A program made the translations under genes and the position numbers. The notes below the pieces were generated by a model. That model ran no database searches. It worked only from the letters and a program-made list of their open reading frames with translations, and was not told the origin of the DNA. From Candidatus Aminicenantota bacterium (GTDB lineage: Bacteria > Acidobacteriota > Aminicenantia > JAMOAD01): 34,605 nucleotides of DNA. How positions within the stretch are numbered: position 1 is the stretch's first letter; each line of letters opens with the position of its first letter. Positions 2,386-27,066 of the stretch are shown piece by piece. The DNA is taken from assembly GCA_027067555.1 (NCBI GenBank), contig JAMOVU010000105.1, positions 1 through 34,605 on the forward strand, read 5' to 3'.

Positions 2386-3612
2386 ATGATATTAAGAGAA
2401 GAGCTCCTTAAAATCTTAAAATCCGTGGAAGAGCCGGATTTTACCTTTGTGGAAAAGGACTTTCCACCCGTTTTCACAGGAGCTGAGGGCATAAAAGTTT
2501 ATGATTCGGAAGGCAATGAATATCTTGATTTTTCATCATTTTTCGGGGTGAGTTTTACAGGGCACTCTCAATCCTTTGTAAAGGAAGAAGCTGAAAAAGG
2601 GTTCTACCATGGCCTGGGAGATCTCATACCATCCGAAGAAAAAATTCTTCTAATGAAAAAACTTTCGGAAATCATAGGAAAAGGATACAGGGGTGTTCTT
2701 TCCCAGAATGGCTCCGATGCGGTTGAAGCCTGCCTCCGCTCTGCCTTTCTCTATAAATGGAGCAAAAAAATCATAGCCTTTCAAGGAGCATATCACGGAA
2801 CTTCACTGGGAGCGCTTTCCGTGACATACTCAAATAAATTCAGGAATAGATTTGAAAAGCTTTTGCCATTTGAAACAAAATTTTTTCAGTATTCTGTAAA
2901 TTCCATTCCAGAAATAAAAGATTTTCTAAAAAACAATGGAGTTTCTGCAATTATAATAGAGCCTGTTCAGGGAAGAGCCGGCATTAGAATAGCTGAAAAA
3001 GAGTTTTTACTTTCTTTGAAAAAATTATCAGATGAATTTGATTTGCCTCTGATTTTTGATGAAGTATTCACAGGATTCGGAAAAACCGGCGAATATTTTG
3101 CAAAGGATTATTTTGGCATAGAACCTGATCTTATTGCATTTGGAAAAGCTTTGAGCGGAGCTTTCCCCCTTTCAGGATGTTTCGGGAAAGAGAGAATAAT
3201 GAATCTATGGGGAAAAAGTAAGGGAGAAGCTTCTTTTACATTTACTTTTTCCGGAAATCCGTTTTTTTCAAGAGTTGCATTAAGGAATCTTGAATTTTTA
3301 GAAAAATTAAATTTCAGAAAAAAAGTCAGGGAAATTGAAAGTTTGATGAAAAAAGGATTGTCCGGGTTAAAAAACAAATATAAAAATAAAATAAAGGAAG
3401 TGAGAGGAATAGGAGTAATCTGGGGAATTGAACTTTATCATCCCATAGATTCATTTATTGTATTTAAAAAACTTCTTAATGAGGAGAGAATTATCACTCT
3501 TCCTTCAGGAGAAAATGGAGAAACACTTGAAGTTTTACCTTCTGTAATTGTAGAAGAAAAAGAGATTAAAAAATTCATTAACTCTCTGGAGAAAATCCTT
3601 GAAACTCTTTGA
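2386..3612 (+). CDS. Class-III PLP-dependent aminotransferase
   Basis: A 408-residue fold-type I aminotransferase of the acetylornithine/ornithine/GABA group. Visible motifs: SQNGSDAVEACLRSA (about 106-120, phosphate-binding turn and helix), GAYHG (about 134-138), IIEPVQG (190-196), LIFDEVFTGFGKTG (222-235, Asp225 contacting the pyridine nitrogen) and LIAFGKALSG (249-258, Lys254 the predicted Schiff-base lysine). Length is normal for the family. This family moves amino groups between glutamate or alanine and an aldehyde or keto acid, often a terminal aldehyde. It overlaps the next gene by 14 bases, and the LuxE/LuxC-type partners suggest it aminates the aldehyde they make. Substrate unknown. 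Confidence 0.85.
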   Translation: MILREELLKILKSVEEPDFTFVEKDFPPVFTGAEGIKVYDSEGNEYLDFSSFFGVSFTGHSQSFVKEEAEKGFYHGLGDLIPSEEKILLMKKLSEIIGKGYRGVLSQNGSDAVEACLRSAFLYKWSKKIIAFQGAYHGTSLGALSVTYSNKFRNRFEKLLPFETKFFQYSVNSIPEIKDFLKNNGVSAIIIEPVQGRAGIRIAEKEFLLSLKKLSDEFDLPLIFDEVFTGFGKTGEYFAKDYFGIEPDLIAFGKALSGAFPLSGCFGKERIMNLWGKSKGEASFTFTFSGNPFFSRVALRNLEFLEKLNFRKKVREIESLMKKGLSGLKNKYKNKIKEVRGIGVIWGIELYHPIDSFIVFKKLLNEERIITLPSGENGETLEVLPSVIVEEKEIKKFINSLEKILETL

Positions 3613-4531
3613 TGAAATAAAAAATTATATTGAAAATGAAAAAACCTTCAATGAAGAACTTGCCATCGAAATTGCAAACTTTCAATTAAAAAACAATCCT
3701 TTTTACAAAGCTTATGCGGAAAAAGTCGGAATAAAAAAGATAAAAAAAATTCAGGACATACCCTTTCTGCCGGTGGAATTTTTTAAAAATCAGAGGATTT
3801 TCTCTTTTGAAAAAGCGGATGGCTTTTTTATGTCAAGCGGTACAGGAGGAGAAAGAAGCAAAGTTTTTTACAATAAAAAAACCCTTGAACTTTATGAAAT
3901 TTCCGCTCTTAAAAGTTTTCCTTTCAAAGATAAAAAGATATACTCTCTTATTCCTCCCTTTTCAATAGCAGAAAATTCATCTCTATCTTTTATGCTTGAT
4001 ATTTTTTCAAGAAATCTAAATTTAGAGTATTTGAACAAAGAAAGCTTTGAAATAGATGAAAAAATATTTTTCAGGATTTTAAAGGAAAAAACAGAAGACA
4101 ACAGTGTTCTCTTTCTAACATCCCTGCAGCTTTTTAAATTATCCTCTTTAAAAAAGGAAAGCATTACTAAAAAGTTTACTATTATAGAAACAGGTGGATA
4201 CAAAGCCACAAAAAAGATTTACAGGAGAAAGAAACTTTATAAATTTGCTAAAAAAGTATTTGTAAACTCCGAGTTTTTCTCTGAATACGGAATGGCAGAA
4301 CTTTTTTCCCAGTTTTACACTGTTTCAAAAAACAGAGACTACACATTTTCACATTATAATTATATTTTTACAAAAGAGGGGAAAGGATTACTAAAAGTTT
4401 TTGATTTTGCGAATCTGGGAACAGTATCATCTTTATATATTCCGGATTTTATTGTAAAAAGGGGGAATGAGTTTGATGTTAAAGGAAGACTTACATCGGA
4501 AATAAGAGGTTGCGGCTATGTCTTTAAATAA
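3599..4531 (+). CDS. LuxE-type acyl-protein synthetase (acid-activating, adenylate-forming)
   Basis: A 310-residue protein of the LuxE family of the adenylate-forming superfamily, which activates a carboxylic acid with ATP and carries the acyl group on a cysteine. Visible motifs: IPFLPVEFFK (54-63), the P-loop-like MSSGTGGERSKVF (78-90), ETGGYKA (197-203), EYGMAELFSQ (229-238), and a C-terminal GRLTSEIRGCG segment with Cys305, placed like the acylated C-terminal cysteine of LuxE. The start is TTG 3599: GGAG at 3588-3591 gives a 7-base spacing and no better in-frame start is nearby. It overlaps the aminotransferase by 14 bases and the LuxC-like gene by 14. Slightly short compared with Vibrio LuxE (about 370-380). 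Cognate acid unknown. Confidence 0.85.
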   Translation: MKLFDEIKNYIENEKTFNEELAIEIANFQLKNNPFYKAYAEKVGIKKIKKIQDIPFLPVEFFKNQRIFSFEKADGFFMSSGTGGERSKVFYNKKTLELYEISALKSFPFKDKKIYSLIPPFSIAENSSLSFMLDIFSRNLNLEYLNKESFEIDEKIFFRILKEKTEDNSVLFLTSLQLFKLSSLKKESITKKFTIIETGGYKATKKIYRRKKLYKFAKKVFVNSEFFSEYGMAELFSQFYTVSKNRDYTFSHYNYIFTKEGKGLLKVFDFANLGTVSSLYIPDFIVKRGNEFDVKGRLTSEIRGCGYVFK

Positions 4532-5522
4532 AAAAGAGAAGACACTTAAAGCTCTTAAATTATTCAGACAAAGATATGAAGAGGGGAAAATTGTTTCCTC
4601 CAAAAAATATCAAAAAAAATTAGTTTTAGAGAGTATAGAGCATTTTATAAAGGAGACGAAAAACTATGAGGTAAAAGAACTTGTCTCTTCCTACAAAAAA
4701 ATATTCATCATCCTCCCTGCAAATGTTCCGACAGAGTTTTTTGAATTTATACCCATTCTTCTTTCATACAATGCTTTCTTTTTTTTCAAATTACCGAAAA
4801 GAAACAGGATTTTCATAAAAAGTTTTTTTGAAATATTGAATTTTAATAATATAAAAGCAGAATATCTATCCCACAAAAAAACTTTAAAAGAGGCAAAAAA
4901 TTTTGATTTTATTATAGGTTCAGGAAGCAGTGGGCTTGAGGATTTTTTAAAGTATTTAAATAAACCTTACAGATATTTCGGGCCCAAATTTTCCTTTGCA
5001 ATTATGGAAAAATTTTCAGAAAAAGATTTGAAATCAGTAGTAAAAGATTTTCTTTCCTTTGATACTGAAGGGTGCCTTTCCGTAAGATTTTTATTTACAA
5101 AATTCGACCTTGATTTGAAATTTTTAAAAGAAATGATAGAAAGTATAAGAAAAGAGCTGTATCCTCAAAAAGATTTTGACCCTTATCTTTTTGATTATTA
5201 TAATGCCGTAAACCATTATTATTCCAAAGAGGGACTTATCCTAAAAAGAGAAGCTGTCTTCAAAGTTAATGAATTCCCCAAGTACTTCCCTCAAAGAACC
5301 CTTTTTGTCAAAAAATATGAAAAAGAGACTGAAATTATTGATTTTTTAGAAGAGGCAAAAAACTCTGTTCAGGCAATTTTAAACAAGGATGGTTCGGAAT
5401 CAGATTTTTTCATCAAAAACACATCTGTATCTCTTTTTCTTCCGTCTGGAAGGGCTCAGTTTCCTCCTCTCGGATGGTTATTTGAAAGAGGTTTAAAATT
5501 AGATAATTTTTTTATAATTTAA
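4518..5522 (+). CDS. LuxC-type acyl reductase (short form)
   Basis: A 334-residue LuxC/aldehyde-dehydrogenase-like protein; family members reduce an acyl-cysteine intermediate to aldehyde with NAD(P)H. Visible: ILPANVPTEF (64-73, matching the AGNVP segment of LuxC), IIGSGSSGLEDF (132-143), RYFGPKFSFAIM (152-163), FDTEGCLSVRF (181-191) with Cys186 as predicted nucleophile, and a C-terminal GRAQFPPLGWLFERG. LuxC is normally about 480 residues, so this is a much shortened version, missing mainly N-terminal and inter-motif material. ATG 4518 lies inside the LuxE-like gene, implying translational coupling. It ends three bases before the convergent HDOD gene. Confidence 0.78.
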   Translation: MSLNKKEKTLKALKLFRQRYEEGKIVSSKKYQKKLVLESIEHFIKETKNYEVKELVSSYKKIFIILPANVPTEFFEFIPILLSYNAFFFFKLPKRNRIFIKSFFEILNFNNIKAEYLSHKKTLKEAKNFDFIIGSGSSGLEDFLKYLNKPYRYFGPKFSFAIMEKFSEKDLKSVVKDFLSFDTEGCLSVRFLFTKFDLDLKFLKEMIESIRKELYPQKDFDPYLFDYYNAVNHYYSKEGLILKREAVFKVNEFPKYFPQRTLFVKKYEKETEIIDFLEEAKNSVQAILNKDGSESDFFIKNTSVSLFLPSGRAQFPPLGWLFERGLKLDNFFII

Positions 5523-6417: not shown

Positions 6418-7489
6418 GAGCCATCGCCATTTTTACCATATCACTTTCAGGATCAACCCTCCTCGGATTTCTTGCGGCTTCTGCAAGAGAAACGCTTACT
6501 ATATCATTTCCTCTGCTTGCCACCATCTGACCGAATTTGCCCTCATGAATTAACCTTACAGCATGATAACCAAATCTTGTTGCTAACAGCCTATCAAAAG
6601 GAGATGGAGAACCACCCCTCTGCAAATGGCCAAGAACAGTTACTCTTGTCTCCATCCCGGTTCTTTCCTCAATTTCATCTCCCACTTTATTTCCAATCCC
6701 CCCCAATCTTATAGGCATTGTCGGGTCATCAACAATTTTTTTTACAACAACATCCCCACCTTTTGGTTTTGCTCCTTCACTGACAACAACAAGACTGAAT
6801 CTTTTCCCCTTTCGAACTCTCCTTTCTATCGTTTCAGCTACCTTATCAATTTCATAAGGAATTTCCGGAATCAGGATAACATCACCTCCTCCTGCAATTC
6901 CCGAATGAAGGGCAATCCAACCGGCATCCCTTCCCATTACCTCTATAACCATTACTCTGTGGTGGGATTCTGCGGTCGAATGCAATTTATCAATTGAAAA
7001 AGTAGCTACCTGGAGAGCGGAATCAAAACCAAATGTCACATCCGTTCCGCCAAGATCATTATCAATTGTTTTCGGGACCCCCACCATCGGGACCCCGTAT
7101 CTTTCGTAGAACTCAAGTGCAATACTCTGAGTACCATCCCCACCTATTGAAACAATAACATCAATATCATTGTATTCTATTGTTTTAATAACCTGCTCAC
7201 TAACATCAATAAACTCAGATTTTCCATTCTTTTCCACTCTATATTTGAATGGATTATCTCTGTTGGAAGTTCCCAGAATCGTTCCCCCTCGGGGAAGTAT
7301 ACCTGAAACATCTTTTTCCGTAAGAGGAAAAACATTCTTTTTTATTAACCCTGCAAAACCATCCCTTATTCCCACAACTTCATAGCCATACTCATTTATA
7401 GCTGTTTTAACAACCGCTCTTATAACAGCATTAAGACCGGGACAATCACCGCCGGCAGTTAAAACCCCTATTTTTCTTACTTTTGACAT
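6395..7489 (-). CDS. pfkA: 6-phosphofructokinase, mixed-substrate clade
   Basis: A 364-residue phosphofructokinase that phosphorylates fructose 6-phosphate to the 1,6-bisphosphate in glycolysis. Visible: GVLTAGGDCPGLNAVIRA (8-25), GGTILGTSNRDNPF (68-81), SIGGDGT (114-120), VPKTIDNDLGGTD (138-150, with the catalytic Asp of TIDND), EVMGRDAGWIAL, and the C-terminal GHLQRGGSPSPFDR. Glycine in GGDGT is the ATP-type residue (PPi enzymes usually have Asp: GGDDT), whereas lysine in PKTIDND is shared with PPi-dependent and group-III enzymes. I infer an ATP-using, non-allosteric group-III type. It has an SD (GGAGG, about 10 bases away) and follows the symporter by five bases. Confidence 0.93.
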   Translation of the reverse strand: MSKVRKIGVLTAGGDCPGLNAVIRAVVKTAINEYGYEVVGIRDGFAGLIKKNVFPLTEKDVSGILPRGGTILGTSNRDNPFKYRVEKNGKSEFIDVSEQVIKTIEYNDIDVIVSIGGDGTQSIALEFYERYGVPMVGVPKTIDNDLGGTDVTFGFDSALQVATFSIDKLHSTAESHHRVMVIEVMGRDAGWIALHSGIAGGGDVILIPEIPYEIDKVAETIERRVRKGKRFSLVVVSEGAKPKGGDVVVKKIVDDPTMPIRLGGIGNKVGDEIEERTGMETRVTVLGHLQRGGSPSPFDRLLATRFGYHAVRLIHEGKFGQMVASRGNDIVSVSLAEAARNPRRVDPESDMVKMAMALGTGFGI

Positions 7490-7494
7490 AGCTA

Positions 7495-9009
7495 TTATCC
7501 CTCCTTTTTATTTTTTATATCCCCAAAAAGCGGTTTTATTTCTTCCTCCGAAGGCGGAGGAGTCAAATAACTAACAACCACCAAAGCTAAAATTGATAAA
7601 ATTGCAGCAGGATAGATAATCGGAATCCCCCATGGGTCCCCATTGGGATTATTAATAGGTCTCATTATGGATGGCCAAATATACCCAGAAGCCTTTAAAA
7701 ATATTGCCACAACCGTACCAGTAATTATTGAAGCCAAACCTCCTGCCTTTGTAGCTCTTTTCCATGCAAGAGCTGCAATAAGCGCGGGCGTTATGGCAAC
7801 TCCGTAAATAGTATATGCAAAATAACTCATTTCCAGGACAGATGTCATTTTGGTAGCAAGGAGATATGCAATTATACCAAGAATAATAACCCATGCCTTT
7901 TGCAATAAAACCATCTTCTTTTGAGAAGCATTGGGATTTATAAATTTTTGATAAATATCTCTCATTATATTTGTTGTTGGAGAAAGGAGATAATTCATTC
8001 CAGTGGAAATAACCACAGCTGTAGCTGCTCCTAAAAGAAGAACACCTATCACAGGTGGTACCATTGTCTTTGCAGCAACAAGAATAATAGAAGCCGGGTC
8101 TATTCCTTCTTTACCTCCCGAAGAATTGAAAAGCTGAATTTTATCCCAAAACTTTGCACTTGCAAAAACAGCTATTACAATAACAACAGTCTCAACTACT
8201 ACTGTTCCAATTATCCATAAGCTAACAGCCTTTTTAGCATCTTTTGGAGTTTTTGCACTGTAAAATTTTTGATACATACTCTGAACACCCAATAGCAATA
8301 GCAAAGTAGCAAGAAAATAACTTCCTGCCTTTAAAAGAGGATGCGCCCCAAATTGTGAGTTTATTATAGTAAAGTTTTCAGGAGGTAAAACCTTTCTTAT
8401 ATGCTCCCAACCTCCAGCTGCTGCCATTACAAAGGGAGTCGCTAAAATTGTTGAAAGTAAGATAATTATGCCATTTGGTAAATCAGTGTATGCAACTGCA
8501 AGCATTCCAGCCGCTGCTGTAAATATAACAACAAAAAGGGCGGCCAAAAATTGTCCTTCACCAACACTTACTTTACCATCGGTAATTACATTTAAAATAT
8601 ATCCCCCGGCTCTGAATTGATAACTTACTATGGCGGTAAAGCTTATGATCAAAGCTATTGCTCCAAAAATCCTTGCAAAGCTGCCATACCTTACTTCCAA
8701 AATATCACCTATTGTATATTGGCCAAAAGTCCTTATTTTTGCTGCTAAAAAATAAATTATTAAAATTCCGACCCAGGCACCGGCCGGAAGCCACAGAGAA
8801 CTCCATCCTGCTTTTGCAGCATATTCGGCTCCTGCAATAAATGTTCCGGAACCTATCCATGTGCATATAAGAGTAAAAACCATTACATAAACATTTAAAG
8901 ATCTACCTGCGACCATAAAATCTTCCTGACTTTTAACTTTCTTTGCTCTGAGAAAATTAAAAATCAGAAGAATCAAAAAGTATGCTAAAATCAGATAAAG
9001 ATACCACAT
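7495..9009 (-). CDS. Sodium:solute symporter (SSS family)
   Basis: A 504-residue integral membrane protein with about 13 hydrophobic helices. The SSS signature appears as FMVAGRSLNVYVM (31-43) followed by TWIGSGTFIAGAEYAAKAGW (50-69), then ADLPNG-type and YLLSPTTNIMRDIY segments. SSS proteins couple Na+ entry to uptake of sugars, amino acids, organic acids or vitamins; the substrate cannot be read from sequence. The AAGGAGG Shine-Dalgarno at 9014-9020 supports ATG 9009. It heads the symporter-pfkA-HDOD operon and diverges from feoA. Adjacency to phosphofructokinase hints at carbon uptake, as inference only. Confidence 0.9.
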   Translation of the reverse strand: MWYLYLILAYFLILLIFNFLRAKKVKSQEDFMVAGRSLNVYVMVFTLICTWIGSGTFIAGAEYAAKAGWSSLWLPAGAWVGILIIYFLAAKIRTFGQYTIGDILEVRYGSFARIFGAIALIISFTAIVSYQFRAGGYILNVITDGKVSVGEGQFLAALFVVIFTAAAGMLAVAYTDLPNGIIILLSTILATPFVMAAAGGWEHIRKVLPPENFTIINSQFGAHPLLKAGSYFLATLLLLLGVQSMYQKFYSAKTPKDAKKAVSLWIIGTVVVETVVIVIAVFASAKFWDKIQLFNSSGGKEGIDPASIILVAAKTMVPPVIGVLLLGAATAVVISTGMNYLLSPTTNIMRDIYQKFINPNASQKKMVLLQKAWVIILGIIAYLLATKMTSVLEMSYFAYTIYGVAITPALIAALAWKRATKAGGLASIITGTVVAIFLKASGYIWPSIMRPINNPNGDPWGIPIIYPAAILSILALVVVSYLTPPPSEEEIKPLFGDIKNKKEG

Positions 9010-9036
9010 CTTTCCTCCTTAACTATTAATATTTAA

Positions 9037-9063
9037 ATTATATCTAATCAAAAAAAAAGTCAA
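9037..9063 (-). promoter_or_regulatory. Candidate promoter for the symporter operon
   Basis: Minus-strand TATAAT at 9042-9037 with TTGACT at 9063-9058; the spacer is 15 bp, shorter than ideal. The leader to ATG 9009 would be about 21 bases and contains the Shine-Dalgarno. The -35 abuts the inverted repeat at 9065-9084. Confidence 0.45.
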
Positions 9064-9064
9064 T

Positions 9065-9084
9065 AGGTTAAAGAGAATTAACCT
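9065..9084. promoter_or_regulatory. Inverted repeat, possible operator between the symporter and feo promoters
   Basis: AGGTTAA (9065-9071) and TTAACCT (9078-9084) form a perfect 7-bp inverted repeat around a 6-base centre. It touches the candidate -35 of the symporter promoter and lies 20 bases upstream of the feoA -35. The half-site resembles the AGGTTA arm of DtxR/IdeR boxes, but the arm spacing is five bases wider than that consensus. Confidence 0.4.
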
Positions 9085-9104
9085 TTCAAACGGAAAAGAA
9101 GAGA

Positions 9105-9133
9105 TTGACAATCAATTATAGTTCATATATAAT
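9105..9133 (+). promoter_or_regulatory. Full-consensus sigma-70 promoter for feoAB
   Basis: TTGACA 9105-9110, exactly 17 bp, TATAAT 9128-9133: a complete consensus match. The predicted start near 9140 would give a leader of only about nine bases, beginning inside the GAGG at 9139-9142. Such strength suggests a repressor controls it. Confidence 0.8.
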
Positions 9134-9148
9134 CTTACGAGGTAAAAT

Positions 9149-9379
9149 ATGACACTAATAAACGCTAAACCAAATAAAACTTACATAATAATAGGTTTTA
9201 ACGGAGGGCCAAACCTGATTCAAAGACTTTATTCCATGGGACTTTATCCCGGGGCAAGAATTCAAATTGTTAGTGTAGCTCCACTTAGAGGCCCACTTAT
9301 GGTAAAAAATATTGATAATGGAATTCAAATAGCTCTGGGACGGGGGATTGTAAGCAAGATAATTGTCACAGAGGCATAA
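9149..9379 (+). CDS. feoA: FeoA, ferrous iron transport accessory protein
   Basis: A 76-residue single SH3-like FeoA domain: LIQRLYSMGLYPGARIQIVS in the middle matches the family's (R)L..MGL.PG..(I/V)(E/Q)(V)(I/V) core, followed by GPLMVK and IALGRGIVSKIIV. FeoA is a cytoplasmic protein required for FeoB activity. It is followed by feoB after two bases. ACGAGG at 9137-9142 precedes ATG 9149. Confidence 0.92.
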   Translation: MTLINAKPNKTYIIIGFNGGPNLIQRLYSMGLYPGARIQIVSVAPLRGPLMVKNIDNGIQIALGRGIVSKIIVTEA

Positions 9380-9381
9380 AA

Positions 9382-11289
9382 ATGAAAAGGGTTGCTCTCA
9401 TCGGTCAGCCTAATTGCGGAAAATCAGCTCTTTTTAATGCAATAGCAGGATATAAGGCAAATTCATCCCACTTTCCGGGAACAACGGTTGAAATTTTAAC
9501 GAGTGAGGTCATTTATAAAGATGAAACTTTTGAATTGGTAGACCTTCCCGGCTCATATTCACTTTCTCCCTTTGACAAAGCAGAAGAAGTTAACACTTTA
9601 TTCATTTTAAAAGAAAATTTCGATCTTATAATCAATGTAATTGATGCATCCATTTTAAACAGATCTCTTGAACTTACCATAGAAATACTTGATATAGGGA
9701 AACCCACAATTGTCGTACTTAATATGATGGATGAAGCAAAAAAAAAGGGGATAAAAATTGATATTGAGAAGCTATCATCCATTCTCGGTGTGCCGGTAAT
9801 TCCAACCATTGCTCTTTATGGAGAAGGAGTTGATAATCTTCTGAATAATGTTATAAAAATTTTAAAAAACCCAAGAAACGCCAAGCCTATTACTCTTAAT
9901 TCAACCATTGAAGCAATCGTAAATAAATTATCCTCTTATTTCAAAGAGAGAGAAGAAAAAAGATTCATTGCTTTTAAAGGAATAGAATGGCCTGAATTAA
10001 AAAATCATATTAAAATTCCCAGGGAGTTTTTTGTTGAGATAGAAAGGATAAATGAAGAAATAGAAAAAATTTACGGAAAAGATATTAAGGAATTTATTTT
10101 TTCGGAAAGGCATCATCTCTCTATGAAAATTGCGGAGGAAGTGGTAAAAATAAGTCACACAATAGAAAAAACAATGGAAGAAAAGATAGACAAAATACTG
10201 TACCATCCATTTTGGGGCTATATAATCTTCCTGCTTTCTTTTATATTGGTGCTTCTTCTTATATTTAAAATAGGAGGTTTTCTTGAGGAAATATTTGTTT
10301 ATCCTTTTGATATTTTGTCCGCAAAATTCCAAACAATAAAGGCAGCAAAAATAATTAAACCTTTTATAAATGGGACACTGGAAGGAACAATGGGAGCCAT
10401 AGGGGTAATTATACCTTTTATGGTCCCGGTTATTTTCTTTATATCCCTTTTTGAGGAAACCGGTTTTCTTGCAAGGTCAGCTTTTCTTTTTGATAGCTTT
10501 ATGCATAAAATAGGATTACATGGCAAATCAATTCCCCCTCTAATAATGGGATTTGGCTGTAATGTCCCCGCAATCTCAGCCACAAGAATCATTGAAAGTG
10601 AAAGGGATAGAATAATAACAGCTCTTTTGATTCCATTTATTCCATGCTCCGCAAGAACAATTATCATATCCGCTCTTGTAAGTAAGTTCTTAGGAGTATG
10701 GTGGGCACTTTTTATTTATCTAATTTCCATAGTAATAGCAATAATAATAAGTCTTATAGCCTCAAAATTAATAAAATACCCTGCACCCGGTTTAATAATG
10801 GAGATCCCCGGTTTCAAAATCCCAAGTATGAAAAACGTACTTATTAAAACCTGGCTTCAATTAAAACCTTTTTTATTTTATGCTGTACCGATTTTAATTT
10901 TAGGTAGCATATTTATAGAATATTTTAAGTTATACGGAGCGGAAAGTATCATAAATGGAATCTTGAGACCTATAACCTATGTGTTAAATCTTCCTTCCCA
11001 AACAGGATTCACCCTCATTTTCGGATTTCTAAGAAAGGAGTTAGCACTTTTAATGTTAGGGCAATCACTCGGAGTTAAAATAACGGAAATCACTTCAGTT
11101 CTCACACCTTTACAAATCCTATCATTTACAATCTTCACGACTCTTTATGTACCATGTTTAGCCACATTGCTTATTCTTAAAAAAGAATTCAATGGCAAGA
11201 TTGCAACAATCTCTTTAATTTTAAATGTGACGGTAGCTCTTCTGGTAACCACCCTAATAATACAAATACTAAAAATTACAGGAATCTAA
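9382..11289 (+). CDS. feoB: FeoB, GTPase-coupled ferrous iron transporter
   Basis: A 635-residue Fe(II) transporter. The N-terminal G domain has G1 GQPNCGKS (8-15), G2 GTTVE (about 33-37), G3 DLPG (about 54-57) and G4 NMMDEAK. A helical linker (residues 170-265) follows, then about nine membrane helices with gate motifs, including GFGCNVPA (about 389-396) with the conserved cysteine and IPCSARTIIIS near 427. FeoB is often 700-770 residues, so this is a compact form without an extended C-terminus; no FeoC is present. GAGG with a 7-base spacer supports ATG 9382. The stop overlaps the next start (TAATG), tying the NusG-like gene to this operon. Confidence 0.95.
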   Translation: MKRVALIGQPNCGKSALFNAIAGYKANSSHFPGTTVEILTSEVIYKDETFELVDLPGSYSLSPFDKAEEVNTLFILKENFDLIINVIDASILNRSLELTIEILDIGKPTIVVLNMMDEAKKKGIKIDIEKLSSILGVPVIPTIALYGEGVDNLLNNVIKILKNPRNAKPITLNSTIEAIVNKLSSYFKEREEKRFIAFKGIEWPELKNHIKIPREFFVEIERINEEIEKIYGKDIKEFIFSERHHLSMKIAEEVVKISHTIEKTMEEKIDKILYHPFWGYIIFLLSFILVLLLIFKIGGFLEEIFVYPFDILSAKFQTIKAAKIIKPFINGTLEGTMGAIGVIIPFMVPVIFFISLFEETGFLARSAFLFDSFMHKIGLHGKSIPPLIMGFGCNVPAISATRIIESERDRIITALLIPFIPCSARTIIISALVSKFLGVWWALFIYLISIVIAIIISLIASKLIKYPAPGLIMEIPGFKIPSMKNVLIKTWLQLKPFLFYAVPILILGSIFIEYFKLYGAESIINGILRPITYVLNLPSQTGFTLIFGFLRKELALLMLGQSLGVKITEITSVLTPLQILSFTIFTTLYVPCLATLLILKKEFNGKIATISLILNVTVALLVTTLIIQILKITGI

Positions 11290-11762
11290 TGAAAGAATGG
11301 TATCTGATAATTACAAAACCTCAAAAAGAATTTTTTGTTGAAAAAGCTTTAAAAGAAAATTTAAAAGATCTTGAGGTTTATTGTCCCAAAAGATTAAAGA
11401 AAGGCAAACTAAAATCCTTTTTCCCGAACTATCTTTTTGTGAAATTTGATAAAGATAAATACTTCCATACAATCAAATACACAATGGGAGTTAAAAGTAT
11501 TTTCATGGTGGATGGAGAGCCGATCAAAGTTCCCGAAGAAATAATAAAAAAAATAAGAGAAAATGAAGAAAATGGAGTAGTAAAAATTAGAAGACATAGC
11601 GGACTTTTGAAAAAAGGAGATAGGGTCAGAATAGAAGAAGGGGCATTGGAAGGTATTGAAGGGATTTTTCACTCTGAGTTAAAAGATTCGGAAAGAATAA
11701 GAATTTTGGTTTCCTCTATTTTAGTAATTACCCAGAAAGAAAAAATCTCCAAAATAGGATAA
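11289..11762 (+). CDS. Specialised NusG paralogue (RfaH/UpxY/LoaP-like antiterminator)
   Basis: A 157-residue two-domain NusG-family protein. The NGN domain (1-95) begins WYLIITKPQKEFFVEKAL and contains FFPNYLFVKF and a GVKSIFMVDGEPIKVP segment; the KOW domain (about 105-155) has GLLKKGDRVRIEEGALEGIEG. Such paralogues bind RNA polymerase and suppress pausing or termination in selected long operons. General NusG is usually longer and sits by secE/rplK, neither of which is here. Its ATG overlaps the feoB stop, an unusual neighbour because most specialised paralogues head capsule or natural-product operons. Its target could be elsewhere or in the nearby long exported-protein operon. Confidence 0.82.
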   Translation: MKEWYLIITKPQKEFFVEKALKENLKDLEVYCPKRLKKGKLKSFFPNYLFVKFDKDKYFHTIKYTMGVKSIFMVDGEPIKVPEEIIKKIRENEENGVVKIRRHSGLLKKGDRVRIEEGALEGIEGIFHSELKDSERIRILVSSILVITQKEKISKIG

Positions 11763-15010: not shown

Positions 15011-15045
15011 TGATATTTTTTACTATTTAAATAGTGGAGAGAAGA

Positions 15046-16908
15046 ATGAAAAAAATCACCTTAATAATTATGTTATGTTTTTCTTTTTCTTTGTTTGGCC
15101 TTTCAATTTCTCACACTAAAATCACAAGTTTTAACATAGGAAACAGCATACCTCTCTCAGTAAAAATCCCTGAAAAAGTAAAGGTGGTCCTCATCTTTTA
15201 CAAAATTGGGGATAAAGTGGATCAGTATCAAGTTAGAATGATGAAAAAGGACAAAGTTGGCAATTATATTTATTCTCTTGATAGCAGAACATTTACAGCT
15301 AAAAAGCTAAGTTATCATTTTGTTTACTTAAAAGGAAAAGAATATTTCCGATATCCTCAAACATCCGATATTACAGCGATAGGACAGGGGCAATTAATAA
15401 AGCTCCCTGTTGTTCAGAAGCAGCCAAAACCATTCCCCCTTTCAATCTCAGGTAATTTCCAGGAACAGTGGCTTATAAGTACGAATGATGATAATAGTAA
15501 GGGAGAAAAACCAACCAAAAGCGGGAATTTAACTTTAAATGGAAACTTCACCTCCGGAAACTCTCAAATTAATTTTTCAACTACAGGGAATTATACTCCT
15601 ACACAAACAAAACAGTACAATGTTTCATCCGTTCTTTTCAAGTATAAAAGCGGAAATCACGATCTCGAAGTAGGAGATCTCTCCTTTCAAGCGCCGGATC
15701 TTGCTCTTTCTGCTTATGGTAAAAGAGGTCTGTATTATAATTTTTCTTCAAACAAAATCGGGATCGACCTTTTTTCTCTTAGCTCTCAGCAAATCGCCGG
15801 TTTAGGGCTCCCCGAGAAAAACTCAATGGTATCCGGAGGAAAATTTAGTTTAAAACTGGGAAGCTTTAACATTTATACATTTTATTTAAGTGGTAAGGAT
15901 GATCCTACGGTAGGACAAAACAGCTCTTATAGTTTTTCCTCTGTCAGAGAGGGGAGTGTATATGCTTTTGGGTTTACTTCCACTTTATTTAATTATGCAG
16001 TAAATCTGAATGCTTCTTATTTTTCCTCAAACTATACAAAGGATGCTCTTTCAAGCGAAAAGAAGAAAGATCATGCAATAAACTCAAGTATTTCAATAAA
16101 CTATAAAGGACTGAGTCTGAGCTCTACCTATAAAGAAATTGGAGCTTATTATAATACTGTGGGATCAAGTTATATGAGTAATAATCAGAGAAGTGCAGGA
16201 GCCTCTTTCGGATACACTTTTTCCAAAATAACCCTTTCTGCAAACTACAGCCACATGGAAAGCAACATCGCCAAATTAGATACAATACCAGAAAGTAAAA
16301 CCGATAATTTCAACTCAAGCATTAATCTGAATTTAGGTAAGATTTCTCTCGGGATAGGATACACAGCAAACAAACAGAGGACAACAACAAATGATGAAAG
16401 CAGTGGACTTTCAAGTAATATGGATACATCAAATTTTACACTTAATTTATCTATTACTCCGTCCTCTCATTTTAGTTGGAGTCTCAGTGGAGGTAAAAGT
16501 TTGAATAAATCATTAGATGAAAAAACATCTTACAGTTTTAACTCAAATATGAATATTTCCATAGGGAACTTTTTTTCCTTAACTCCATCCTTTACCTATC
16601 TTAAAGAGGATAAAAAGGGAAGCATATCAGAAACAATCACATCATATTTAAGCTATAACCTGACACTGATACCAAATGCTTTTTCATTGAGTGGTTCAGC
16701 CTCTTATAATGATAATAAAACACCGGGTGGTACGATGGATTCAAAATCCATTAATGCATCCAGCAGATTAACGCTCTCCTTTGGCTGGCTATGGAATAAG
16801 TTAAGCCAAAGCTCCGCTTATGTAGAAGCAAGTTATTATAAGACCGAATATACAGCTTTAACAAATGAATACTATAAAATATATGGAAGTATCTTAATTT
16901 CTTTTTAA
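15046..16908 (+). CDS. Predicted outer-membrane beta-barrel protein
   Basis: A 620-residue exported protein of unknown family. Residues 1-18 form a signal peptide (MKKITLIIMLCFSFSLFG). Residues 20-110 form a small strand-rich domain (KVKVVLIFYKIGDKVDQYQV). From about 140 to the end runs a series of amphipathic, Ser/Asn/Tyr-rich strands with short turns, ending in ISF, the terminal Phe of outer-membrane proteins recognised by BamA. No TonB plug is seen. The start is ATG 15046, because GGAG at 15036-15039 is six bases away; a GTG at 15034 lies upstream of this site. It is followed after 10 bases by the first PKD gene. A porin, export channel or anchor for the PKD proteins are all possible. Confidence 0.72.
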   Translation: MKKITLIIMLCFSFSLFGLSISHTKITSFNIGNSIPLSVKIPEKVKVVLIFYKIGDKVDQYQVRMMKKDKVGNYIYSLDSRTFTAKKLSYHFVYLKGKEYFRYPQTSDITAIGQGQLIKLPVVQKQPKPFPLSISGNFQEQWLISTNDDNSKGEKPTKSGNLTLNGNFTSGNSQINFSTTGNYTPTQTKQYNVSSVLFKYKSGNHDLEVGDLSFQAPDLALSAYGKRGLYYNFSSNKIGIDLFSLSSQQIAGLGLPEKNSMVSGGKFSLKLGSFNIYTFYLSGKDDPTVGQNSSYSFSSVREGSVYAFGFTSTLFNYAVNLNASYFSSNYTKDALSSEKKKDHAINSSISINYKGLSLSSTYKEIGAYYNTVGSSYMSNNQRSAGASFGYTFSKITLSANYSHMESNIAKLDTIPESKTDNFNSSINLNLGKISLGIGYTANKQRTTTNDESSGLSSNMDTSNFTLNLSITPSSHFSWSLSGGKSLNKSLDEKTSYSFNSNMNISIGNFFSLTPSFTYLKEDKKGSISETITSYLSYNLTLIPNAFSLSGSASYNDNKTPGGTMDSKSINASSRLTLSFGWLWNKLSQSSAYVEASYYKTEYTALTNEYYKIYGSILISF

Positions 16909-16918
16909 GGAGTAAAAA

Positions 16919-18856
16919 ATGAAAAGAAAGAAAAATTTATTTTTTCTTGTTTTGATATTAACAATTCCTTCTTTACTCATATCAATTACATACACACCTT
17001 CAAGTCCTCTTGTGGGCACCACTGTTAATTTTAGGACTGACAACTTTAATTACAGCAGTGGAAATATTACATGGCACTTCGGAGATGGAACAACAGGTAC
17101 AAGTACTGGATCTTATGGAGAAATAACTCATGTGTATAAGGATCCAGGAACTTATACAGTCACAGCACAGGACACATTTGGTTATGTCGATGAAACAACC
17201 ACTATAACCATTAATGATGACAGATCCATAACAGTATCATCTCCATACCAGGCAGGTAAACCTCTCACCATAACACTCGTGAATGCTAAATCTCCTCCCA
17301 TAAAATGGGATTTCGGAGACGGAGCTATTATAACAGGCTCATCAACAATAACTCACACTTACAGCAATTCCGGAACATATACAATAAAAGCTTATGATTT
17401 TAATGGGACATCTAAAACACCTGTTTCAAAAACAATAAAAATAGGAAATCCCAAAACTATTACCTGGACACCAAAAGAACCTTATGAAGATCAAAAAATA
17501 TATTTCAAAGCTCTGTATTTTAAAGGTTCAACATTAAAATGGGATTTTGGGGATGGAACAATTATAAATGCTCCCACTACAACCGAGCATACTTACAATG
17601 ACCCGGGAATATATACAATTAAAGTTTATGATTACAGTGGAAATGATGCATATCCAGCAGTAAGCCAGATAACTGTAAAAAAAGACCCAAGAAGTATTGT
17701 AGTCACCAATCCCACACCGGGTTTAACAGAACCGGTAATCTTTCAAGCCTTAAACTTTTTCTCCGACAATGTACTTTGGGACTTTGGAGACGGAACCCAG
17801 GAAGTCGGAGGCCCGATAATCACTCATAGATTTAGAAAAATCGGGGTTTTCACAGTAAAAGCAAAAGACTATGGGGGTAATTCCCAAAAGATTTTTGAAA
17901 CTAATATAACAGTAGTAGCACAAGGCTCGCACTCCTCGTCTTTAGTAATTTCAGGAATTGAACTTTATTTTACAAATAATAACAAAAACTATCTTGTGGT
18001 TCCAACCGGAACTACAAATGTTGGTGCAAAGGCAAGAATAAAGTACGAAGGAACAGGGATATTAAACGCTTACTGGGCAATAGATGGTCAGGCATATCAT
18101 TTAATTAATCGAGTGTTAAGTTTTGGACAATATGTAGAGTTATATCTCGATAAAATTCCTTCATTGGTTACAGGTTATCACACAATTTCAATAGTTTTTT
18201 CATCACCCCAGCCTGCTTTCGAAAAAATTCCGGAGCTTGGCCTTTTTGTTTCCCCAATTTCTAAGTTCGTGAATTTAATAACCCCTTATGATAAAGAGAA
18301 TTTTGCTCTCGGAGAAAATATTAATTTTACATGGAAGAGATATCCCCTTGCGTTAAAATATGGATTTGTAATAGGAAAAGATGCCCAATCTGTTTTAAAA
18401 GGGAAAGAAATTCAAAGGTTCTTTGTAAATAACCCGACCTATTCCCCAAAAATAAGCTATAAAATAGGCGACAAATATTACTGGATGGTAGAAGCTTATG
18501 ATATTTACAACAATGTAATAGCCAAGAGTGAATTAAGAGAATTTACAATAGTAAAGAATATTTTTACTATAAAAGAAAAAGAAAAAAATAACCTTATTGC
18601 TCTGGGAGATTCTGAATTTATCCTCTTAAATTTTGAAATAACAAGCGCAAAAATAAAAAAGAAAAAGTATTATCTTATAAGAATTTTTGTAAATAACTTT
18701 AAAGCCAATGAATTTGTAGAAAAAGGAGAAAGACTCAAATCAATAGAAACATCTGTCAAAATTAAAAAAGGAGTTGAAAATACAGTAAAAGTTAAAATTT
18801 ATGAAATTTTTCCTGACAGATTAAAATTAGTTTCGTATAAATTGATAAAACTTTAA
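16919..18856 (+). CDS. Secreted protein with four PKD domains
   Basis: A 645-residue exported protein: signal peptide 1-22, then four PKD beta-sandwich domains with WxFGDG motifs at about 52-57 (WHFGDG), 130-135, 208-213 and 287-292 (WDFGDG), each ending in a (T/I)H.Y/F....G.(Y/F)(T) strand. Residues about 345-450 form a domain shared with the next gene (contains KYEGTGILNAYWAIDG and a VLSFGQ segment). A fibronectin-like part (ITPYDKENFALGENINFTWK) and a Lys-rich strand domain follow. There is no membrane anchor or lipobox. AGGAG precedes ATG 16919. PKD domains usually mediate extracellular protein or glycan contacts. Confidence 0.82.
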   Translation: MKRKKNLFFLVLILTIPSLLISITYTPSSPLVGTTVNFRTDNFNYSSGNITWHFGDGTTGTSTGSYGEITHVYKDPGTYTVTAQDTFGYVDETTTITINDDRSITVSSPYQAGKPLTITLVNAKSPPIKWDFGDGAIITGSSTITHTYSNSGTYTIKAYDFNGTSKTPVSKTIKIGNPKTITWTPKEPYEDQKIYFKALYFKGSTLKWDFGDGTIINAPTTTEHTYNDPGIYTIKVYDYSGNDAYPAVSQITVKKDPRSIVVTNPTPGLTEPVIFQALNFFSDNVLWDFGDGTQEVGGPIITHRFRKIGVFTVKAKDYGGNSQKIFETNITVVAQGSHSSSLVISGIELYFTNNNKNYLVVPTGTTNVGAKARIKYEGTGILNAYWAIDGQAYHLINRVLSFGQYVELYLDKIPSLVTGYHTISIVFSSPQPAFEKIPELGLFVSPISKFVNLITPYDKENFALGENINFTWKRYPLALKYGFVIGKDAQSVLKGKEIQRFFVNNPTYSPKISYKIGDKYYWMVEAYDIYNNVIAKSELREFTIVKNIFTIKEKEKNNLIALGDSEFILLNFEITSAKIKKKKYYLIRIFVNNFKANEFVEKGERLKSIETSVKIKKGVENTVKVKIYEIFPDRLKLVSYKLIKL

Positions 18857-18885
18857 AATAAAAAATTTTTCAGGAGATAGAGAAA

Positions 18886-21240
18886 ATGAAGAAACTATTT
18901 ATATTTGTAGTGTGTCTTTTTCTTTCAATTCACCTTTTAAGTAAGATTATATTCACCCCTCAAAAGATAGTGATAGGGCAACAGGTCACTTTTTCAATTG
19001 ACAATCCAAATAATTGTTCAAGCTGCAGGTGGGAGTTTGGTGATGGAACCCGCCAGGATAATGTTAAAGATACTGATTCTGTAACACACATTTATACTAA
19101 AGCAGGTGGTTATATGGTAAAAATTACTTTTGACGGTTGCCAGGGAGTTACTCCACCTGCTCCTGAATTTTTAACAATCAATGTTGTTGACGAAAGAACA
19201 ATTAGCGTTACCCCACCTAACCCAAAAGCCCATGAAACCATAACATTCACATTAAACAATGCTCTCACTAATGTTGTAAGATGGAATTTTGGAGATGGCT
19301 CTCCTGAGATAACAGGTGGATCTTCCATAACACATGTATATAATAATTCCGGAAACTTTAAGGTTTCTGCCAAGGAAAAAGGGTTTACACAATCCCCAGT
19401 AGAAATAACCGTCAATATCAGCCCTGATCCAAGAACAGTAACCTTCAGCCCGCAAAACCCAAGAGAAAAAGAAGAGATTACCTTTCGGGCAAAAGCATTT
19501 AAAGCCTCCGGCCTTCTCTGGGACTTTGGCGATGGCAAGAAGGTCAGAGGAGGTCCCGTAATTGTTCACTCATACAATAATGCTGGCAATTATAATATTA
19601 AAGTTTTTGATAATGAAGGAAAAGATGAATTTCCTATACTTATCAATATTTCAGTACAAAAAGATTTGAGAGAAATAACATACAACCCTCCCGACCCTAC
19701 CCAGGGAGAAATTATTCGATTTTCGGCAAAAGGCTTTAAGTCATCCACTTTATCATGGGATTTTGGTGATGGAACAAAGAAGAAAGGAGGATCAAGTATT
19801 ACTCACTTTTATAGAAATTTTGGAATTTTTGAAATAAGAGTCTCAGACAATGGAGGAAAAAACTCAAATCCTTTCACAAGAAAGATTCAAATTACAAAAG
19901 ACAGAAGGAATATAACATGGGAACCACCAAATCCGGTTGATCATGAGCCTGTAAAATTTAAACTTATCTCATTTAATACAAATGGGTACCTATGGAGATT
20001 TGGCGATAGAGTGGAAAAAAGGACATCATTGCCTTATATCACACATACATATAACAAACCGGGGACTTTCACTGTTAGAGTTTATGATATCAAAGGAAAG
20101 TTCGGAACACCTCTTATAGCAAAAGTAACCATTTCAAAAGATCAAAGAAAAGTAATGGTAACCAAGAGAACCATTCATGTAGGGGAGGAAATTTCCATAA
20201 AAGCAATAGGTTTTAAATCCAATATTCTTCTATGGGATTTTGGCGATGGGGTGAAAAAGACAGGGAAAACAGAAGAAAGCCACATCTATTTGAAAACCGG
20301 TAATTATAAAATAACAGTAAATGACAAAGGAGGACAGGATAAAAAAGTTTTTACCGTCCAGGTACAAGTTCTTCCTGACCAGCGAAAGATTGAAGTTTCA
20401 AATTCAACGATTGGAATTGGAGAAAAAGCTCAAATCAAAGCATTGAATTTTTATTCACAAAAAATATTATGGGACTTTGGTGATGGAGTGAAAAAGATAG
20501 GCGGAAATACGGAAACCCATTACTACAGGAAAAAAGGCGAGTATTTGGTTAAGGCTATTGACTATGCAGGAAAAGATAAAAAAATTTTCACCGCTAAAAT
20601 CAAAGTTATTATTAAACCATCAAAAGTGTCAGCTCTTGCAATTTCAGGGGGAGAATTATTTTTTACCAGTACAGGGAAAAATTATTCCATTGCCTATTTA
20701 AGACAAAAGAATTTCACCGCTAAAGTCCGACTGAAATATGAAGGGACAGGAATAATATCTGCATATTGGAAAATTGATGATAAGCATTATAAATTAGTAA
20801 ATCAAATTTTAAGCTTTGGACAAAGTAAACTTTTTTCAATAAAGAATATTCCCACAATAGAAACAGGACTTCACAAAATAAGTTTCTGGATAAAATCCCC
20901 TAAAACAAAATTCGAACTTAAAGGATATTATTTTGTATCGCCTACGAAGGAAAAGGTTACTCTTATCATACCAAAAGACCAGAAAAAGATAGTTAAAAAA
21001 GAGATTACTTTAAAGTGGAAACCTGTAGAAAAAGCTGTCACATATAGAGTAATACTATCTCAAACAATTGATACACTCTTTAGAAAACCCTATAAAGAAT
21101 TTAAGAAAAAACAAACTATCTTTTACATTAAGAATCTTTCAAATGGAAAGTACTACTGGTTTGTTGAAGCTTTCGATAAGAACAACAGATTATTAGCATG
21201 TAGTAATATCAGTTCCTTTACAATAGACACAACTCCTTAA
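18886..21240 (+). CDS. Secreted protein with seven PKD domains (paralogue of the preceding gene)
   Basis: A 784-residue exported protein with signal peptide 1-19 and seven PKD repeats of about 80 residues: WEFGDG, WNFGDG, WDFGDG, WDFGDG, WRFGDR (variant), WDFGDG, WDFGDG. The first repeat has a CSSC pair and a further cysteine (FDGCQG), giving potential disulphides. The last 210 residues match the previous gene in order: an ELFFTSTGKNYS segment, KYEGTGIISAYWKIDD, LSFGQ, then a fibronectin-like VTLIIPKDQKKIVKKEITLKW module. The two genes are therefore tandem paralogues differing in PKD number. AGGAG precedes ATG 18886. Its stop overlaps the stop of the convergent TonB receptor gene. Confidence 0.85.
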   Translation: MKKLFIFVVCLFLSIHLLSKIIFTPQKIVIGQQVTFSIDNPNNCSSCRWEFGDGTRQDNVKDTDSVTHIYTKAGGYMVKITFDGCQGVTPPAPEFLTINVVDERTISVTPPNPKAHETITFTLNNALTNVVRWNFGDGSPEITGGSSITHVYNNSGNFKVSAKEKGFTQSPVEITVNISPDPRTVTFSPQNPREKEEITFRAKAFKASGLLWDFGDGKKVRGGPVIVHSYNNAGNYNIKVFDNEGKDEFPILINISVQKDLREITYNPPDPTQGEIIRFSAKGFKSSTLSWDFGDGTKKKGGSSITHFYRNFGIFEIRVSDNGGKNSNPFTRKIQITKDRRNITWEPPNPVDHEPVKFKLISFNTNGYLWRFGDRVEKRTSLPYITHTYNKPGTFTVRVYDIKGKFGTPLIAKVTISKDQRKVMVTKRTIHVGEEISIKAIGFKSNILLWDFGDGVKKTGKTEESHIYLKTGNYKITVNDKGGQDKKVFTVQVQVLPDQRKIEVSNSTIGIGEKAQIKALNFYSQKILWDFGDGVKKIGGNTETHYYRKKGEYLVKAIDYAGKDKKIFTAKIKVIIKPSKVSALAISGGELFFTSTGKNYSIAYLRQKNFTAKVRLKYEGTGIISAYWKIDDKHYKLVNQILSFGQSKLFSIKNIPTIETGLHKISFWIKSPKTKFELKGYYFVSPTKEKVTLIIPKDQKKIVKKEITLKWKPVEKAVTYRVILSQTIDTLFRKPYKEFKKKQTIFYIKNLSNGKYYWFVEAFDKNNRLLACSNISSFTIDTTP

Positions 21241-23504
21241 AATTTATATTTTATACCAAAGATAAATGTTCGAGGTTTGGAGGGGCCATAGATGTATCCC
21301 GCATCTCTAAAAGGACCTCTGTCGATATCCTTTTGAAATTCATTTGTAATATTATAAACTTTTGCAAAAATATCAGTTTTATTGTTTCCAGAACTTATAC
21401 TTTTTCTTATTGATAAACTTAGAACATAATAAGGATCGGTTATTTCAAGTCTGTCTTTCTTTATGTAACCTTTATAATGAGGCATTCTCATCCTACCATT
21501 GTATTCAAATGACAAATCCAGATTAAAAAATTTGAAACCATTAAAAAATAAAGTTGCATATCCATAATTTTCCGGGGTTTTAAAAGGAACTTTTGATTTA
21601 AAATTGGGCTCCGGTTCATCAAAAAAGCTCTTTTGATAGGTCCATCCCATGTCAAACTCAAAAAGAGAAGCAATCTTCCATCCTATATCAGTTTCAAGGC
21701 CATAAACTTTCAGTCCCTTTCCATTTTCTCTTAAAAACACCCTGGAATTCTCCGTTCCTTCAATCTCTCTTAAAACAAAGGTGTCAAGTAATCTATTATA
21801 AAAGAATCCCAAACTGAATTGAAAAGCTTTATTTTTATTAGCAAAATAATAATCAAAACTATGAGTTAAACTATAAGATCTCTCCTCCTTAAGTTGTGGG
21901 GAATTTTTTATTATAAACCCTTCCCCTCCTAAAATTGTTATATGCAAATCTTCATCAAATACCTGCGGAGCTCTGAAGCCTGTGGAAAGTGTTGTCCTTG
22001 ACTTAAGGTTTTTGCTTAAATTTAACATAACACTTATTCTTGGACTTGTAATAACTTTTTTTACTTTACTGTGCCTGTCGAATCTTATTCCATACAAAAA
22101 GTCTATTCTCTTACTAATTTGAAAATCATCCTGAAACATAATACCCATACTTCTGTAATAATCATTAATTATTCTATTATACGAAAGAGCCTGATCATTA
22201 AGTTTTTCAGCTCTATAACTTGCGCCAAATGTTAAAAGATGTTTTCCCGCTTTGTGGAAATAGTGCATTATTCCAATAAGGATAGGATTCTTTGTCTCCC
22301 CAAAAGCATTCGGATCTTTCCCTGCTCCATAATAAGAGTTCCTTTTTAAATAAGTGTATGAAAAAGCAAGCTTTAATACATCATCGCCAAAAAATTGCTC
22401 CCACCTTAAATTTGTATCAACCCTATTAGTTCTTGCCATTTCAGCTATTAATGCTTCCTGAGGCGGGAGTTCAAGATGGTCACCACCTCTCCTATATTCA
22501 TTTATTTTTGTAAAACCAAGTTTTAATTTTCCTTTTATTTCAGGGAAATATTTAAAAACATTAATCCCAAAAGCCATATCATTTAAAACACCCAAATTAG
22601 AAAATCCATCACCATTTACATCAACAGCCTGTCTGTTAAAATAGGTAGCAAAAAAAGATGATTTTGTTTGTTTATCAGAAGAAACATAATTATTAATAAA
22701 CCCCACTTTGATATAGGGTTTGCCTAAAATACTCTCACTCTGAAAATTAAGAGAGCTTCCATTTTCAAAACTTTCCCTGGTAATTAAATTTATAACACCT
22801 CCAATAGCATTTCCTCCGTAAAGAGAGGATGTCCCTCCTTTAACAATCTCTATCCGCTCAATCATCTCCGAAGGAATCTGCTCAAGCCCGTACACACTTG
22901 CAAGAGAACTTATAACCGGTAAACCATCAATTAAAATCTGTGTGTATTTTCCTTCCAGCCCGTTTAATCTTACCTGCGTATAATTACAGTTCTGGCAATC
23001 TGTTTCAACTTTCACGCCTGTTGTAAACCTCAATGCATCTGCAAGATTAACTGGAGTTTTCTCTTCTATCATTTTCTGAGAAATCACATATGTTTTTACC
23101 GGTATATCAAGTAATTTTTTTTCGCTCGCCGTTGCAGTTACAGTTACTGCTTCCTGAAGGCTTTCCATCATTTTAAAAAAAACCGGAACATTACTTTTTT
23201 TCCTTATTCTAAAAAAATTTGTCACATAGGGAGCATACCCTTCTCTGTATACCTCTATATGAATTTTCATTCTTTTGGGAACCAATAAAGAAAACAAACC
23301 TTTATTATTTGTTTCCACATTATCCCCTGTCTCGGGAATTACCACAATGGCACCTTTTACAGGTTCATTGTTTTCATTTACCACTTTTCCCACTATTTTT
23401 GCAAAGTTACCCTTTAACCAAAATAGCCCTATTTTATCAGATGAAAAACTCAGCGTTACACTAATTATAATAAACCCTGCTAAAATTACTACTTTTCTTT
23501 TCAT
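21237..23504 (-). CDS. TonB-dependent outer-membrane receptor with N-terminal carboxypeptidase-like domain
   Basis: A 755-residue TonB-dependent receptor. Signal peptide (1-22); a CarboxypepD_reg-like domain (about 37-110: GKVVNENNEPVKGAIVVIPE, then GLFSLLVPK); a plug (about 125-245) with ALRFTTGVKVETDCQNCNYT, QVRLNGLEGKYTQILIDGLP and IERIEIVKGGTSSLYGGNAI; then a 22-strand-type barrel ending in FIFGIKYKF. The CQNC pair in the plug is shared by a subgroup of receptors I associate with metal or cofactor uptake. A strong SD (AAGGAGG) precedes ATG 23504 but can be buried in the hairpin at 23511-23568. The 3' end overlaps the PKD gene by four bases, antiparallel. Confidence 0.93.
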   Translation of the reverse strand: MKRKVVILAGFIIISVTLSFSSDKIGLFWLKGNFAKIVGKVVNENNEPVKGAIVVIPETGDNVETNNKGLFSLLVPKRMKIHIEVYREGYAPYVTNFFRIRKKSNVPVFFKMMESLQEAVTVTATASEKKLLDIPVKTYVISQKMIEEKTPVNLADALRFTTGVKVETDCQNCNYTQVRLNGLEGKYTQILIDGLPVISSLASVYGLEQIPSEMIERIEIVKGGTSSLYGGNAIGGVINLITRESFENGSSLNFQSESILGKPYIKVGFINNYVSSDKQTKSSFFATYFNRQAVDVNGDGFSNLGVLNDMAFGINVFKYFPEIKGKLKLGFTKINEYRRGGDHLELPPQEALIAEMARTNRVDTNLRWEQFFGDDVLKLAFSYTYLKRNSYYGAGKDPNAFGETKNPILIGIMHYFHKAGKHLLTFGASYRAEKLNDQALSYNRIINDYYRSMGIMFQDDFQISKRIDFLYGIRFDRHSKVKKVITSPRISVMLNLSKNLKSRTTLSTGFRAPQVFDEDLHITILGGEGFIIKNSPQLKEERSYSLTHSFDYYFANKNKAFQFSLGFFYNRLLDTFVLREIEGTENSRVFLRENGKGLKVYGLETDIGWKIASLFEFDMGWTYQKSFFDEPEPNFKSKVPFKTPENYGYATLFFNGFKFFNLDLSFEYNGRMRMPHYKGYIKKDRLEITDPYYVLSLSIRKSISSGNNKTDIFAKVYNITNEFQKDIDRGPFRDAGYIYGPSKPRTFIFGIKYKF

Positions 23505-24631: not shown

Positions 24632-24632
24632 C

Positions 24633-27025: not shown

Positions 27026-27030
27026 ACTTT

Positions 27031-27059
27031 AATATATTATTTTAATAAGAAAAGTTCAA
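27031..27059 (-). promoter_or_regulatory. Candidate promoter for a leaderless secreted-protein/uvrB/SRAP mRNA
   Basis: Minus strand TTGAAC (27059-27054), 17-bp spacer, TATATT (27036-27031), then five bases to ATG 27025. There is no Shine-Dalgarno. The arrangement is nearly the same as before the aminotransferase (TTGAAC, 17 bp, TATAAA). Confidence 0.6.
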
Positions 27060-27066
27060 GAGAAAA

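Follow-up and report, generated by a model that had tools for sequence, protein, structure and literature searches.

Three overlapping genes of an uncultured Aminicenantes bacterium likely constitute a nitrile-free branch of queuosine biosynthesis, in which 7-carboxy-7-deazaguanine (CDG) would be converted to 7-aminomethyl-7-deazaguanine (preQ1) in place of QueC and QueF. They encode a class-III aminotransferase (AT), a LuxE-like ligase and a short LuxC-like reductase (mini-LuxC), and lie in a DNA stretch of 34,605 nucleotides, here called the window. Standard bacterial preQ1 synthesis after CDG proceeds through QueC, which forms a nitrile, and then QueF, which reduces it (PMC11130926, PMC5372742). 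The genes, their catalytic residues, the operon, the replacement pattern and the phylogeny are shown below; the catalytic steps, the intermediates, the cofactor and the amino donor are all inferred from genomic data, without biochemistry. No published account of the route was found in the open-licence literature searched, which excluded preprints and most subscription journals.

Genes and enzyme families of the trio

Three ORFs were confirmed, all on the + strand. The first (2386–3612) encodes the AT, a 408-aa class-III PLP aminotransferase and the proposed preQ1-forming transaminase. The second (3599–4531, TTG start) encodes a 310-aa LuxE-like acyl-AMP/acyl-cysteine ligase, the proposed CDG-activating enzyme, and the third (4518–5522) a 334-aa mini-LuxC acyl reductase with an ALDH-like fold, which is proposed to convert a CDG thioester to 7-formyl-7-deazaguanine. 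Neighboring genes overlap by 14 nt on the + strand (3599–3612 and 4518–4531), and both overlaps have the same length in the sister genome L012, where the genes occupy 6788–8014, 8001–8936 and 8923–9933. The first-pass annotation, made from sequence alone, had described these overlaps, the catalytic residues Lys254, SSGTGG, Cys305 and Cys186, and a LuxC-like protein about 145 residues short, all of which held. Its exclusion of bioluminescence for want of luxAB held as well within the set scanned: none of 20 window proteins matched the luxA or luxB families, and a lux operon was rejected on this basis. A tRNA-Met gene (CAT) is located at 2243–2317, immediately upstream of the trio.

The AT meets the criteria for a class-III aminotransferase (Pfam Aminotran_3, E = 2.6e-75; PLP lysine Lys254 present), and the lysine is invariant in all 16 module ATs compared (three from the window genus, four from family f4 and nine from WOR-3). 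It fails the criterion for an acetylornithine aminotransferase, scoring 240 bits against an NCBIfam ArgD cut-off of 410, and the residues at the ArgD signature positions do not meet the ArgD-type criterion either. All 16 module ATs carry Arg at the Glu of the QGE motif, Glu at the Arg of the C-terminal V[IL]R..PP motif, and Thr or Leu at the Arg of the FHGR/YHGR motif; in the window AT, the inverted pair is Arg197/Glu382 and the third position is Thr. Among 16 paralogues, 14 retain the Glu and the C-terminal Arg, and two divergent ones (par_G004c and par_G000c) have neither. In a tree of these 32 proteins, the module ATs form a single clade, with support of 100/100, apart from the paralogues. 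In ornithine aminotransferase, the QGE Glu, the C-terminal Arg and the YHGR Arg bind substrate carboxylates. Because such residues have this role, loss of the YHGR Arg fits a substrate without an alpha-carboxylate; the ligand of the inverted pair remains unassigned.

The LuxE-like protein has no Pfam match, and its similarity to NCBIfam LCFA_lig_LuxE (E = 5.9e-9, 35.4 bits) falls short of the equivalog cut-off of 550. Its assignment is also backed by the solved LuxE structure 7xc6_E, and the SSGTxG motif (residues 79–84) and Cys305, invariant in 17 of 17 LuxE-like proteins, satisfy the motif and C-terminal cysteine criterion of a LuxE acyl-protein synthetase. The third protein meets the Pfam LuxC criterion (25.3 bits, gathering score 21); its Cys186 is invariant in 15 of 15 LuxC-like proteins and corresponds in the alignment to the cysteine in DQQAC of the solved LuxC (7xc6_A). 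With 334 aa compared with 477 aa for solved LuxC, it does not meet the criterion for a full-length LuxC. Structure models, which were built from three sequences with low to moderate confidence (pLDDT 59.7 and 53.9) and used for fold only, tentatively match PaaK-type ligases and ALDH-fold enzymes. The pair thus resembles the LuxC–LuxE fatty acid reductase (PDB 7xc6), with which the SSGTxG motif and the catalytic-cysteine region of LuxC align. However, the two trio proteins are about 60 and 140 residues shorter than their LuxE and LuxC counterparts, lie below the LuxE equivalog cut-off in the case of the ligase, and are joined by an aminotransferase.

Distribution of the trio and of queuosine genes

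A scan of genome contigs with the LuxE-like protein returned two loci, one in an Aminicenantes sister and one in a WOR-3 bacterium, a member of another phylum. Restriction of the three genes to close relatives would have refuted the first-pass interpretation; their recurrence in WOR-3 means that it was not refuted. Within Aminicenantes, the LuxE-like gene is present in 10 of 60 genomes, the window's own included, of which three belong to the window genus and seven to family f4. In WOR-3 (Caldifarciminota), eight genomes have a strong LuxE match, and all eight carry AT, LuxE, LuxC, QueD and QueE in that order. This five-gene run is found in at least three different flanking contexts across diverged genomes; its genes were assigned by Pfam for locus L013 and by BLASTP to L013 and window proteins for the others. 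A ninth WOR-3 genome, G372, contains the AT and the first LuxE residues before the contig end cuts the locus.

Outside WOR-3, the linkage is looser. The trio in the window's genome is not beside queDE, which sit on contig C28. An AT orthologue with 54–55% identity is present in all four family-f4 genomes searched (G007, G011, G014 and G026), where it adjoins neither LuxE–LuxC nor queDE; this search took in four of the seven LuxE-positive members and left out G017, G020 and G023. Weaker LuxE matches occur in G352, where a LuxC-like gene adjoins, and in G353–G356, where no LuxC, AT, QueD or QueE match to the queries was found within the loci read. Weaker LuxE matches (E = 5e-23 to 8e-4) were also seen in other families of the window's phylum. 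No viral copies of the trio were confirmed. No preQ1 riboswitch was detected near the genes: in the window and at eight loci, nothing except tRNA attained the Rfam gathering score.

In genomes with the LuxE-like gene, neither full-length QueC nor QueF, the standard enzymes downstream of CDG, was found. Full-length QueC was found in none of the 10 LuxE-positive Aminicenantes genomes compared with 44 of the 50 LuxE-negative ones, and QueF above cut-off in none of the 10 compared with 40 of the 50 (Fisher p of about 1e-7 and 2e-6, respectively, uncorrected for relatedness). The LuxE-positive genomes represent few lineages, namely two Aminicenantes groups and WOR-3, and the counts are therefore not independent. 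The window's own genome has no QueF match and only short hits to the QueC profile, and so does not meet the QueC and QueF criterion of the queuosine pathway. In WOR-3, QueF was absent from all nine LuxE-positive genomes and exceeded 60 bits in 12 of 31 others. A composite query consisting of QueA, QueC, QueG and two LuxC sequences detected no full-length QueC in any LuxE-positive genome of either phylum, and the same query recovered it in ten LuxE-negative controls of both phyla, including WOR-3 genomes G341, G358, G366 and G405. As the QueC component was a single sequence, a very diverged QueC might escape. The Pfam QueC profile was applied to one WOR-3 genome only (G324) and gave a single sizeable hit, overlapping an ORF that by eye appears MnmA-like.

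The genes on either side of the missing steps are retained. Tgt, sought in Aminicenantes and not in WOR-3, is present in 10 of 10 LuxE-positive Aminicenantes, and QueA in 17 of 18 LuxE-positive genomes, being undetected in G026 only; G372, outside these 18, also bears QueA. Both proteins of the window's genome exceed their NCBIfam equivalog cut-offs and meet the criterion for a preQ1 user. Since QueA and Tgt both need preQ1, their retention in LuxE-positive genomes without QueC and QueF supports the trio as its source. QueD and QueE of the window's genome have QueD and QueE as their best NCBIfam models but fall below the equivalog cut-offs, as does the QueE of the QueC-bearing relative L050. 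This QueE of the window's genome contains the GCNLxCxFCDT and TGGEP motifs, and we counted the CDG-forming criterion as met. A WOR-3-type QueE is found in 10 of 10 LuxE-positive Aminicenantes, and in the QueE tree these sequences form a clade with those of WOR-3, G003 and G004 (100/100), apart from 12 QueE of LuxE-negative relatives. In most of these loci, QueD is a neighbor of QueE. ORF calling yielded no QueD in L087, L091 and L092, possibly owing to a preference for overlapping ORFs. A query with the E. coli QueG gave matches in genomes of f4 and WOR-3 but none in the window genus (G000–G002).

In two relatives, neither complete route was found. G004, which belongs to the window's family and is 95% complete, contains QueD and QueE on two contigs, Tgt and QueA (L090, L097 and L100), and no QueC, QueF, LuxE, LuxC or module AT was found in it. 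G003 is similar, except that it has a piece of LuxC truncated by the start of a contig.

Several further features of these loci were recorded. A 264-aa gene directly precedes queD on C28 of the window's genome (L095:7836–8630), and is also found before queD in G001 (L094) and G004 (L097). The Tgt of the family-f4 genome G014 (L099:7756–8847) is without the CxCYTC zinc-site cysteines present in Tgt of G000, G004, G005 and G058. A Cys158-type position of Tgt was considered as a marker of the module and dropped as uninformative, because it is also changed in two LuxE-negative relatives read.

The proposed route and its alternatives

As QueD and QueE lie beside the trio in WOR-3, and the trio genomes tested lack QueC and QueF, CDG is the likely acid and preQ1 the likely amine. 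QueD and QueE would make CDG, whose carboxylate would be adenylated by the LuxE-like enzyme to an acyl-AMP, with capture of the acyl group on Cys305. Cys186 of mini-LuxC would accept this group, and reduction with NAD(P)H would yield 7-formyl-7-deazaguanine, which the AT would turn into preQ1 for insertion into tRNA by Tgt and continuation to queuosine by QueA. The first-pass annotation had proposed conversion of a carboxylate through thioester and aldehyde to a primary amine and had left the substrate unnamed. The chemistry is supported as the best reading, by genomic inference and with no activity measured, and comparative genomics points by inference to CDG as the substrate.

The predicted route shares its start, CDG formation by QueD and QueE, with the standard QueD–QueE–QueC–QueF pathway (PMC11130926, PMC5372742), and by inference also its product, preQ1 for Tgt and QueA. 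It differs in that no full-length QueC or QueF was found in the trio genomes and that an acyl-AMP, an acyl-cysteine and an aldehyde are proposed in place of an amide and a nitrile. Precedent for the chemistry comes from TamA and TamH of tambjamine biosynthesis, for which ATP-dependent conversion of a fatty acid to an amine was demonstrated through adenylation, thioester reduction and transamination, with L-Glu as the donor (PMC9594044). As in TamA/TamH and in PigE of prodigiosin biosynthesis (PMC8341465), a thioester would be reduced and the aldehyde transaminated to a primary amine, and TamA likewise activates the acid with ATP. In contrast, TamA is an adenylation–ACP fusion and TamH a transaminase–reductase fusion, both acting on fatty acids, whereas the trio consists of three separate LuxE/LuxC-type proteins without a matched carrier protein domain, and its inferred acid is heteroaromatic. 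The ArgB–ArgC–ArgD and LysZ–LysY–LysJ systems take a carboxylate through an acyl phosphate to a semialdehyde and an amine, ending with a related class-III aminotransferase. The trio AT forms a clade distinct from that of the genome paralogues and does not have the Arg of the YHGR motif.

Two alternatives deserve consideration, neither of which we regard as likely. First, the trio may aminate a different acid, fatty or otherwise small, for another pathway, with the queDE adjacency in WOR-3 being incidental. Known LuxE and LuxC act on fatty acids, TamA/TamH yield fatty amines, and the trio does not adjoin queDE in the window's genome. However, the five-gene run is kept across diverged WOR-3 genomes despite changing flanks, QueC and QueF are absent where the trio is present, and preQ1 formation would be left unexplained in genomes that keep QueA. 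Second, preQ1 or queuine may be salvaged, with the trio, QueD and QueE making another 7-deazapurine or a pterin product. G004 suggests that at least one relative may rely on salvage or on an unknown route, and the LuxE-positive QueE form a separate clade with scores below the NCBIfam cut-offs. Against this, the QueE of L050 scores below them too, the motifs of the window's QueE are intact, and the replacement of QueC and QueF would go unexplained. A third possibility, that only LuxE and LuxC belong to the pathway, with the AT a passenger and an unrelated or generic transaminase finishing from the aldehyde, draws on the unlinked AT of family f4 but is very improbable, as every f4 genome searched has an orthologue that groups with the module ATs and shares their invariant Arg197/Glu382 signature, and the AT heads all eight complete WOR-3 runs.

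We thus favor the trio as the route from CDG to preQ1, and note as its weak points that neither complete route was found in G004 and G003, the separation of the trio from queDE in the window's genome, the unlinked AT of family f4, the few lineages behind the counts, the lack of a detected riboswitch and the undetected QueA of G026. A bolder reading, inferred and in our judgment probable, is that Aminicenantes and WOR-3 have in common an undescribed LuxE/LuxC/class-III AT module leading from CDG through acyl-AMP, acyl-cysteine and 7-formyl-7-deazaguanine to preQ1, with an AT distinguished by its inverted Arg197/Glu382 pair. If this is correct, genomes without QueC and QueF are not necessarily dependent on salvage, LuxE/LuxC-type enzymes gain a role in tRNA modification, and an acid-to-amine cascade acts on a heteroaromatic acid.

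Other features of the window

Three further regions of the window were noted. At 9382–11762, FeoB is followed by a NusG-domain gene that starts at the last base of FeoB. Adjoining genes at 15034–23504 encode a 624-aa protein without a Pfam match, two PKD-repeat proteins and a TonB-dependent receptor. On the − strand, 23930–31025 contains a cluster of SRAP, UvrB and MutL genes.
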